DNA of 64,000 nt from Pseudofrankia saprophytica (GTDB taxonomy: Bacteria; Actinomycetota; Actinomycetes; Frankiales; Frankiaceae), in assembly GCF_000235425.2 (NCBI RefSeq), contig NZ_KI912266.1, positions 550,273 to 614,272 on the forward strand, given 5' to 3'. The translations under genes were made by a program, and so were the position numbers. The notes below the pieces were generated by a model. That model saw only the letters and a list, made by a program, of their open reading frames with translations, was not told the DNA's origin and did no database searches. This document shows, in pieces, positions 21,645-25,399 of the stretch (within the stretch, counting starts at the first letter, position 1; the number at the start of each line of letters is the position of its first letter).

Positions 21645-22928
21645 TCAGGTGAACAGGCCGCGCCCCCAGTAGTCGCCGCCGGTGGCGGCGACGCCGGGCG
21701 GGACGGCGAAGATCGCGCTGCCCGTGTGCTCGATGTACTCGTTGAGCGCGTCCGAGTTCGCCAGCCGCGTCTGGAGCGGGATGAACTGTTTGCGCGGGTC
21801 TCTTTGGAAGGCGATGAAGAACAGGCCGGCGTCCAGGTGGCCGAGGCCATCGCTGCCATCGGTGAACGAGTAGCCGCGGCGCAGGATCGCATGGCCGCCG
21901 TTGGTGTCCGGCGAGGCCAGGCGGATGTGCGCGTCCGCCGGGATGACCAGCTCGCCGTCCGCCGTGTGGCCCTTGAGGTCCACGGCGTCGAACTCACCGG
22001 TGCGGCCGAACGGCGCGCCGACGACCTTGGTGCGACCGAAGGTGGTCTCCTGCTCGGCGAGTGAGGTGCGGTCCCAGCGCTCGATGAGCATCTGGATCCG
22101 GCGGGTCACCATGTACGACCCGCCGGCCATCCACGCGGCGGCGCTCTTCTCATCGTTGGGGGCGACCCAGACGTGCTCGTCGAGCTTGGCCGGCTGCTCG
22201 GCGTGGATGTTGTTCGTGCCGTCCTTGAACCCCATCAGGTTGCGCGGCGTCGCCTGGCTGGAGCTGGTCGACGCCGTGCGGCCGAACCCGAGCTGGGACC
22301 AGCGGACCGCGACGACGCCCCGGCCGATCCGGGCCAGGTTGCGCACGGCGTGCACGGCGATCTGCGGGTCGTCGGCGCAGGCCTGGACGGCGAGGTCCCC
22401 GCCGCAGCGCGCCGGCTCGAGGGCGTCGAGCGGGAAGGCGGGCAGGTCGACCAGCGCGGCCGGCCGGCGGCTGGCGAGTCCGAACCGGTCGACGCCAGCA
22501 GCCGTGGTGAACAGGGTCGGCCCGACGCCGAAGGTCAGGGTGAGGTGGCCGGACGCGAGCCCTTCGGCCTCGCCGGTGTCGTCGGGCGGCGCGTCCTGGG
22601 CGCCAGCGACGCCGTCGCCGACCGCCTTACCCGCGGCCATGGCGGCCGCGGCCGCCGTCCATTCCTTGAGTACCTCGACCAGATCGGCGCGGCTGTCGGT
22701 GACGACGTCGAACGCGGCGAAGTGCAGCCGGTCCTGCGCTGGGGTGGCGATCCCTGCCTGGTGGGCGCCGTGGAACTCCACGAGCTGTTTCCCCGAGGCG
22801 GGGACGGCCCCGGTCCCTCCGCTCTTGTCGTCCGAGCAGGCGGTCAGGCCACCGGCAGTGGCGGCGCCTGCGGCCGCGACTCCAGCCAGCCCGAACAGCC
22901 CTCGCCGCGACACCCGTGTCCCAGCCAC
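21645..22928 (-). CDS. efeB: EfeB, Tat-exported DyP-type heme peroxidase
   Basis: 427 residues. Tat signal with twin Arg in VSRRGLFGLAGVAAAG followed by a lipobox-like LTACS near residue 30. The DyP motif GFKDGTNN is near residue 230, and the proximal heme His lies in DAHIRLASP near 340. EfeB is the periplasmic or extracellular partner of EfeUO in ferrous iron uptake and may oxidise Fe2+. The GTG at 22928, with AGGGG eight bases upstream, is chosen over longer open frames. It lies 161 bp downstream of efeUO on the same strand. Confidence 0.93.
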   Translation of the reverse strand: MAGTRVSRRGLFGLAGVAAAGAATAGGLTACSDDKSGGTGAVPASGKQLVEFHGAHQAGIATPAQDRLHFAAFDVVTDSRADLVEVLKEWTAAAAAMAAGKAVGDGVAGAQDAPPDDTGEAEGLASGHLTLTFGVGPTLFTTAAGVDRFGLASRRPAALVDLPAFPLDALEPARCGGDLAVQACADDPQIAVHAVRNLARIGRGVVAVRWSQLGFGRTASTSSSQATPRNLMGFKDGTNNIHAEQPAKLDEHVWVAPNDEKSAAAWMAGGSYMVTRRIQMLIERWDRTSLAEQETTFGRTKVVGAPFGRTGEFDAVDLKGHTADGELVIPADAHIRLASPDTNGGHAILRRGYSFTDGSDGLGHLDAGLFFIAFQRDPRKQFIPLQTRLANSDALNEYIEHTGSAIFAVPPGVAATGGDYWGRGLFT

Positions 22929-23089: not shown

Positions 23090-25318
23090 CTAGGCCGCGA
23101 CCGCCCCGGTCAGCTTGGACAGCGGCTCGGCCAGGCCGTCGACCTTGTCGGACAGTGCTCGGACCTGGGTGTCGCTCAGCGAGGTGTAGTCCGCGTAGCC
23201 GTCGCCCGACTTGTACGGCTCCAGCGCCTTCTCGACATCGGTCAGGCGGGCGTCGATGGTCTTCGCCAGCTCCGGGTCGGTGTCCTTCAGAACTGGCAGC
23301 AGCGGCTCGTACGCGGCCCGGGCACCCTCGACGTTGGCGGCGAAGTCGATCAGGTCGGTGTGCGAGTACCGCTCCTCCTCGCCGGTGACCTTGCTGGTGG
23401 CGACCTCGTTGAGCAGCTCGGCCGCGCCGTTGCCGAGCTGGCTCGGGGTGAGCTTCACGTCGGTGACCAGCGTCTGCAGCTTCTTCACGTCGGCGAGCAA
23501 CTTGTCGGCGACGGCCGGGTCGGAGGTCTTCCCGTTGACCCAGAGATCCTTCTCGATCACGTGGAAGCCGGTCCACTCGTCCGCTGGGACGTCGCCGTCC
23601 CGGGCGTCGATCGCCGGATCGAGGTCGCCGAAGCTTTCCGCGACCGGCTCGATCCGCTCGTAGAAGACCCGGGTCGGTGCGTAGAGGCGCTTGGCCGCCT
23701 CCACGTCGCCGCTCTTGACCGCCGCGACGAACGTCTCGGTGGCGGTGACCAGCTGACTGGTCTGGCCCTCCACGTAGACGCGGTACTCGCCGACGGCCTC
23801 GTACAGCCGCGGGTCGTAGGCGGCGCCCGGGGCGGACGCACCGGGCGCGGCGATGGTGAGCTTCGAGGTCACGCCGTCGCCAGTGGTACTGGTCGGCCGG
23901 CAGCGCAGGGTGTAGTCGCCCTCGGCCAGGTCGACGGTCAGGTTGCGCGACGTCCCCGGGCCGACGTTCTCCACCTCGCCGACGGCTTGGTCGTTCGCGC
24001 CGATGAAGTAGAGCTCGATCGCCTTGCCGGTGGTGTTCGAGACCTTGAAGGTGTGGGCGCCCGCGGACAGGGCCGGCCCCGAGTAGGCGCATGTGTCGTC
24101 GCCGGCGGTGACCACCGAGGCGCCGGCCGCGGTGCCGCCCGTGCCGCCGTCCGAGCCGCCGTTCAGCGCGAAACCGATCGCCCCACCAGCCACGAGCATG
24201 CCCACGACCGAGACGCTCAGGACCGGAACCGTCGTGAGCGTCCTACGCCAACCCATGACCTCGTCCTCCTTGGGAGCTGCTTCCTCGCCGCCGTCGGCGG
24301 GCTTGCTGGTGTCGTCGTTGCCGGCGGGCGCCGGGATGTCGCGGTGCTGGCCGCTGGGCGAGTCGGTGCTCTGGGTCGGGATGGCGGCCTCGGCGGCCGG
24401 GGCGGCGTCTGTCTGGGCCGTGCCCGGCCCGGCCGGAACCGCGCCTGCCTCGGCCGTCGCCTCGGCCGTGGCGGGGGCCGGGGCGGCCGCCGGCTCGGGG
24501 GACCTGAACAGGTAGCGGTAGCAGACGTAGATCGCCATGACCGGGACGAGGTAGCCGAGCCAGACGCCCAGCTGCGCCCACGACCACACCGGGCTGATGT
24601 TGAAGATGCCCTTGAGCAGCGCGCCGTACCAGCTGCTCTCCGAGATGTGGTCGGAGAGGTCGAACGCGAGCGCCTCGTGGCCCGGCAGCAGGTCGGCCTC
24701 CTGCAGGTCACCGACGCCGTAGGCGGCGACACCGGCGGCGACAACGATCAGCGCGCCACCCGTCCAGGTGAAGAACCTGCCGAGGTTGAACGTGAGCACG
24801 CGGTTGTAGAGCAGGTAGCCGAGCAGGATGGCGATCAGGATGCCGACGAGCGCGCCCAGCATCGGGCCGACGGTCGAGCCGTTCGTCGAGTCGATCGTCG
24901 CCCACAGGAACAGCGCTGTCTCCAGGCCCTCGCGGGCGACCGCGAGAAACGCGGTGAAGACGACGGCGCCCGCACCGACAGACAGTGCGGCGTCCATCTT
25001 GCCGCGCAGTTCGCCGGACAGGTTGCGCGCCGTCTTGCGCATCCAGAAGACCATCCAGGTCACCAGCACGACGGCGACCAGCGACAGGATCCCGCCCAGT
25101 CCCTCCTGCGCCTTGGTCGACAAGTTCGCGGAGGTGAACGTGAGCGCGGCACCGAAAGCCAGGCTGAGCGCGACCGCCGCCCCAACCCCGAAGGAGAGGT
25201 GGGCCATCCGGTCACGCCGGTCGATCTTGACCAGGTAGGCGGCAAGGATGCTGACGATCAGCGTTGCCTCGAGCCCTTCACGCAACCCGATCAGTAGGTT
25301 CGGAACGAAGTTGTCCAC
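23090..25318 (-). CDS. efeUO: EfeU-EfeO fusion: iron permease joined to cupredoxin/M75 iron-binding protein
   Basis: 742 residues in one frame. Residues 1-275 are an FTR1/EfeU permease with the two REGLE iron motifs (13-17 and 129-133). A Pro/Ala/Asp-rich linker runs 275-350. Residues 361-384 form another membrane segment or signal anchor, 403-490 a cupredoxin-like domain (CAYSG), and 500-742 an M75/imelysin domain with HVIE at 586-589. In most bacteria efeU and efeO are separate genes. Here no stop divides them, but an in-frame ATG at 24256 with a strong ribosome site could also start free EfeO. The gene starts at GTG 25318 after GGAGAG; DtxR-like boxes lie upstream and efeB downstream. Confidence 0.93.
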   Translation of the reverse strand: MDNFVPNLLIGLREGLEATLIVSILAAYLVKIDRRDRMAHLSFGVGAAVALSLAFGAALTFTSANLSTKAQEGLGGILSLVAVVLVTWMVFWMRKTARNLSGELRGKMDAALSVGAGAVVFTAFLAVAREGLETALFLWATIDSTNGSTVGPMLGALVGILIAILLGYLLYNRVLTFNLGRFFTWTGGALIVVAAGVAAYGVGDLQEADLLPGHEALAFDLSDHISESSWYGALLKGIFNISPVWSWAQLGVWLGYLVPVMAIYVCYRYLFRSPEPAAAPAPATAEATAEAGAVPAGPGTAQTDAAPAAEAAIPTQSTDSPSGQHRDIPAPAGNDDTSKPADGGEEAAPKEDEVMGWRRTLTTVPVLSVSVVGMLVAGGAIGFALNGGSDGGTGGTAAGASVVTAGDDTCAYSGPALSAGAHTFKVSNTTGKAIELYFIGANDQAVGEVENVGPGTSRNLTVDLAEGDYTLRCRPTSTTGDGVTSKLTIAAPGASAPGAAYDPRLYEAVGEYRVYVEGQTSQLVTATETFVAAVKSGDVEAAKRLYAPTRVFYERIEPVAESFGDLDPAIDARDGDVPADEWTGFHVIEKDLWVNGKTSDPAVADKLLADVKKLQTLVTDVKLTPSQLGNGAAELLNEVATSKVTGEEERYSHTDLIDFAANVEGARAAYEPLLPVLKDTDPELAKTIDARLTDVEKALEPYKSGDGYADYTSLSDTQVRALSDKVDGLAEPLSKLTGAVAA
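24265..24271 (-). promoter_or_regulatory. internal ribosome-binding site for free EfeO
   Basis: AAGGAGG on the minus strand lies eight bases before the in-frame ATG at 24256, which begins MGWRRTLTTVPVLSVSV, a natural signal-anchor start. It sits inside the fused efeUO frame. Confidence 0.65.
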
Positions 25319-25349
25319 GCACTCTCCACTGGGCCCAGGTCCCATCCAG

Positions 25350-25399
25350 TTAGGACCACCTAACTTAAGGCAGGCCGACCTAACTTAGGACTACCTAAG
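25350..25399 (-). promoter_or_regulatory. two DtxR/IdeR-like operators upstream of efeUO
   Basis: TTAGGACCACCTAACTTAA (25350-25368) matches the 19-bp IdeR box at 13 positions. A second palindrome, TTAGGACTACCTAA, is at 25385-25398 with CCTAA just before it. Both share the TTAGG-n4-CCTAA core and lie 32-81 bp before the efeUO start. A DtxR-family regulator gene is at 46018. Iron-dependent repression is inferred. Confidence 0.75.

Follow-up and report, generated by a model that had tools for sequence, protein, structure and literature searches.

In many bacteria the iron permease EfeU and its iron-binding partner EfeO are encoded by neighboring genes, and a locus in Pseudofrankia saprophytica raises the question of whether the two are made there as a single polypeptide and, if so, whether the same gene also yields EfeO on its own. 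The gene lies in the window, that is, the whole 64-kb stretch of DNA that was analysed, and the initial annotation had proposed both a fusion protein and a free EfeO.

The frame joining EfeU and EfeO

The efeU-efeO fusion gene occupies 23090..25318 on the minus strand, begins with GTG at 25318 and comprises 742 codons before the stop codon TAG (23090-23092); an alternative ATG at 25345 would lengthen the product to 751 amino acids. The permease and the periplasmic protein had been placed in one frame with no stop between them, and the minus-strand frame is indeed open from 25318 to 23090, its 742-residue product passing the NCBIfam cut-offs for both EfeU (NF041756; 333.8 bits versus 255) and EfeO (NF041757; 424.2 bits versus 270). 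The boundaries first given for the frame are correct but came with no strand: translation of the plus strand of 23090-25318 does not give the fusion protein, and the coding strand is minus.

The EfeU part (24494..25318, minus strand; residues 1-275) has seven predicted membrane helices and matches Pfam FTR1 over residues 6-267 (E 1.1e-60), and its two REGLE motifs, at residues 13 and 129, are both kept. It is followed by a linker of Ala, Pro and acidic residues (24257..24493, minus; residues 276-354), which is predicted to be disordered (pLDDT about 30-35), and by a predicted eighth transmembrane helix (24167..24232, minus; residues 363-384). The EfeO part consists of a cupredoxin-like beta domain (23849..24115, minus; residues 402-490), in which C410 and C473 match E. 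coli EfeO, and an imelysin/M75 domain (23111..23791, minus; residues 510-736, matching Pfam Peptidase_M75), with GFHVIE, a GxHxxE motif, at 584. It matches the solved EfeO structure 7wgu over residues 403-740 (E 2.8e-66). As the REGLE pair, the GxHxxE motif and both cupredoxin cysteines are retained, nothing in the sequence suggests a dead system. The fusion gene is the sole efeU/efeO match found in the genome (9.98 Mb in two contigs), and therefore a working system would depend on this one gene for both functions.

Directly downstream, as the next gene of the operon, lies efeB for a DyP-type peroxidase (21645..22928, minus), which scores 515.5 bits against TIGR01412 (cut-off 428) and whose N-terminus carries an RR motif and then LTAC, judged by eye to be a Tat lipoprotein signal. 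The locus would represent an iron-uptake operon of the efeUOB type whose efeU and efeO have merged into one gene, with EfeB providing the peroxidase/deferrochelatase step. Two overlapping DtxR/IdeR-like boxes, to which no strand was assigned, lie upstream of the fusion gene at 25350..25383 and match TTAGGTTAGGCTAACCTAA at 14/19 positions; no other site of at least 14/19 occurs in the 64-kb window, and the corresponding operon of Parafrankia colletiae is also preceded by a 14/19 site. The operon is probably repressed by iron through these boxes.

The same three functions and conserved metal-site residues are found in E. coli efeUOB, B. subtilis ywbLMN, S. aureus fepABC and most Frankiaceae operons, and the separate efeUOB operons of Frankiaceae also share the gene order of the present one. 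Unlike the present gene, separate operons keep EfeU and EfeO apart, EfeO being periplasmic in E. coli and a lipoprotein in Gram-positives. For a few EfeO members, Xu et al. (2011, PMC3143127) reported fusion to an EfeU at the N-terminus; the domain order, EfeU followed by EfeO in a single chain, is that of the present gene, which thus belongs to an already known kind. The passage on fusions in that paper gives no accession, topology, internal start or lipobox comparison. In the literature searched, which was covered incompletely, no description was found of either the exchange of a lipobox for a helix or the internal start, and none of the literature on EfeUOB in Frankia was relevant as judged by title. 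A minimal complex formed by EfeO and EfeU has been reported for B. subtilis (Miethke et al. 2013, as cited in PMC9174327), a pairing that the fusion would enforce.

Conservation of the junction and two types of fusion

The full-length fusion is present in three of 35 Frankiaceae genomes: P. saprophytica, Pseudofrankia sp. BMG5.36 (96% identical) and Parafrankia colletiae Cc1.17 (74%). The junction is open, without stops, in all three, and the linker changes fast (25 of 58 aligned residues match) while its length changes by whole codons, so that the frame is kept. Whether relatives keep the fusion had been posed as a check on the proposal, a stop codon at this place and only separate EfeU and EfeO in relatives being taken to speak against it; two other species turn out to be fused. 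The same fusions dispose of the initial concern about a missed frameshift at the junction. An error of sequencing or assembly, by which a stop was lost or the frame shifted between two ordinary genes, would fit with the separate efeU and efeO of most other Frankiaceae, but the same open junction in three independently sequenced genomes, one of them at only 74% identity, makes such an error hardly credible. It is very likely that the fusion is translated as a single chain. A further genome, G072, looked fused from two matches with a shared frame length, and reading of the locus revealed separate genes.

Six peptides were used to scan about 85,000 species genomes; no other close copy appeared among the best 80 loci, and no fusion was noticed among the matches listed in a plasmid search; the wider comparison at class and phylum level covered samples of 60 and 80 genomes. 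The three fusions of this first type form one clade with 100% support in both the EfeU and the EfeO tree, and efeB is the next gene in all three species. The gene neighborhood in Pseudofrankia sp. BMG5.36 is the same as in the window. Between the P. colletiae locus (L136) and the window at 14000-40000, only the fusion gene and efeB are common within about 4 kb, suggesting that these two genes moved as a module. The nearest unfused EfeU (loci L156, on G129:C29, and L155) is 64% identical and belongs to another class; beside it lies a lipobox-bearing cupredoxin domain that ends before any M75 domain.

A second type of fusion occurs in five Frankiaceae genomes (G009, G011, G016, G021 and G024, all but G011 being Frankia), in G086 from another family and in Streptomyces sp. 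NBC_01306 (loci L028, L029, L126, L130, L134, L153 and L033:3998-6130). Like the first, it combines EfeU, a linker, an eighth helix and domains resembling EfeO within a single frame, and EfeB adjoins it wherever the locus is long enough to show. It differs in that its EfeO part is only 25-33% identical to that of the first type, and in having no comparable internal Shine-Dalgarno (SD) sequence and ATG. The Streptomyces fusion scores 185.9 bits with the EfeO model, below the cut-off of 270, and the copy at L130 is without the GxHxxE motif. Separate EfeO-like proteins at L117 (G006), L124 (G001) and L125 (G003) cluster with the EfeO portion of second-type fusions; no protein of this kind was found in the P. 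saprophytica genome. A single clade of all fusions is rejected by the EfeO data (p-AU 0.0003), whereas the EfeU tree weakly supports (76/81) a grouping of both types. Therefore, either two fusion events took place, or a single one was followed by exchange of the EfeO part.

Membrane topology and loss of the lipobox

EfeU has been described as a seven-helix protein (PMC9174327), and seven helices are predicted for the EfeU part of the fusion both by hydropathy and by an AlphaFold model. This full-length model, which is weak overall (pTM 0.47, mean pLDDT 76, 46 sequences), further contains a disordered linker from 276 to about 350, a helix at 363-384 and then two domains, one of beta type (402-490) and one helical (503-741). 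The initial annotation had reasoned that the second membrane segment would be needed to place EfeO outside, and the predicted helix at residues 363-384 supplies this extra segment. The seventh helix is followed by RYLFR, and WRR directly precedes the eighth; by the positive-inside rule, these residues suggest that the linker is cytoplasmic and EfeO is outside. An eight-helix topology with an external EfeO is quite probable. The C-terminus of EfeU would lead through the flexible cytoplasmic linker into helix 8, which would run outward, so that the cupredoxin and M75 domains would lie exposed at the outer surface. The iron-binding protein would be tethered beside the permease, presumably one to one.

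The EfeO of nearly all unfused actinobacterial relatives examined has a lipobox (LAAC, AVAC, IAGC and similar). Both types of fusion instead have a longer hydrophobic transmembrane helix in the lipobox position and no lipobox cysteine; this replacement in both types suggests that the seven-helix EfeU ends in the cytoplasm and that helix 8 takes EfeO outside. The tether would substitute for the lipid anchor of EfeO in unfused relatives, and the swap, made in both fusion types, is a neat answer to the topological problem. In one unfused relative (L017 on G023:C366), the N-terminus of EfeO is out of frame in comparison with L018 and L019 and the lipobox is lost, apparently owing to a frameshift or a draft error.

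That a natural EfeU-EfeO fusion is the only copy in its genome and persists in several species speaks for the two proteins acting as one complex, and bears on whether iron passes directly from EfeO to EfeU. The fusion is also a ready construct for structural and transport studies. Its interest is mainly for specialists in iron uptake: the picture of the EfeUOB system is unchanged, and the fusion makes a tidy example but not a surprising one.

A candidate internal start for EfeO

The EfeO part of the fusion has its own signal-like helix, without a lipobox, and a separate product would require an internal start. A candidate is the in-frame ATG at residue 355 (24254..24256, minus), from which an EfeO of 388 amino acids (23090-24256) would be made. 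The AAGGAGG reported eight bases upstream of this ATG is there, at 24265..24271 on the minus strand, and all three first-type fusions keep both elements. Of nine copies of AAGGAGG in the 64 kb, counting both strands, just two are followed by a start codon at a distance of 4-11 nt. With -11.2 kcal/mol, pairing with the anti-SD sequence is the strongest among 95 in-frame ATGs in 19 gene-like frames of the window, compared with -6.4 kcal/mol at the EfeU start, and it reaches -11.9 kcal/mol at the internal start of P. colletiae. The RNA around the internal start is also relatively open: opening costs 7.7, 10.0 and 6.4 kcal/mol across the three species versus gene means of about 15, values similar to those of the EfeO starts in unfused relatives (6-13 kcal/mol).

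An SD sequence so much stronger than that of EfeU, together with a disordered linker that would be accessible to proteases, could mean that the working proteins are separate, with EfeO made mainly from the internal start or released by cleavage of the chain within the linker or close to helix 8, and that the absence of a stop is incidental. This is unlikely, because the frame of the linker is kept in three species despite its fast change and the loss of the lipobox suits a tethered EfeO; moreover, no protease site was identified.

The opposite alternative is that only the fusion is produced, the internal SD sequence and ATG being a relic of a once-separate efeO start that has survived through conservation of the peptide KEDEVMGWRR, located where helix 8 enters the membrane. 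The conserved block does continue into helix 8, with 29 of 31 residues identical between P. saprophytica and P. colletiae, and in a GC-rich genome the peptide KEDE largely forces the SD sequence, which is kept in 86% of synonymous variants for P. saprophytica. Synonymous conservation is uninformative as proof of an internal ribosome-binding site, since, given the amino acids, the chance that the five codons of the SD region match is 0.50. On synonymous resampling, 14%, 23% and 2% of variants were as open as the natural sequence in the three species, a striking result only in P. colletiae (2%), where 0.3% of variants were as open and also had the SD sequence. Second-type fusions manage without an internal start; a fusion can thus persist in the absence of free EfeO. 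However, exclusive production of the fusion does not readily account for an internal SD sequence that is the strongest in the gene-like frames of the window, for low RNA structure at the site in all three species, or for conservation that begins, after the fast-changing linker, exactly at the AAG of AAGGAGG, and it is a possible but doubtful reading.

Of the proposal that one gene gives both the fusion and free EfeO, the strong, open and conserved start site stands, whereas evidence at the codon level is weak. On balance, these features of the sequence somewhat favor production of EfeO from the internal start in an appreciable amount. Such 'free' EfeO would probably still be anchored, since its N-terminus would be the same hydrophobic segment, again lacking a lipobox; helix 8 of the fusion would serve it as an N-terminal signal anchor, and internal initiation would supply EfeO in excess over the permease. 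As a whole, the locus is reasonably well explained as a fused efeUOB operon with a tethered EfeO and an internally started, anchored EfeO. For the further idea that this one gene sets the ratio of tethered to free EfeO, the weak start giving permease joined to EfeO through the eighth helix and the stronger start in the linker giving extra anchored EfeO, with the lipid anchor dropped in both, the case is evenly balanced.

An in-frame internal start is known from infB, in which it gives rise to a shorter second form of IF2. Like infB-type genes, the present gene has one frame, two starts, of which the second is a candidate, and a shared C-terminus; unlike in infB, the shorter product here would equal a partner protein that is normally separate.
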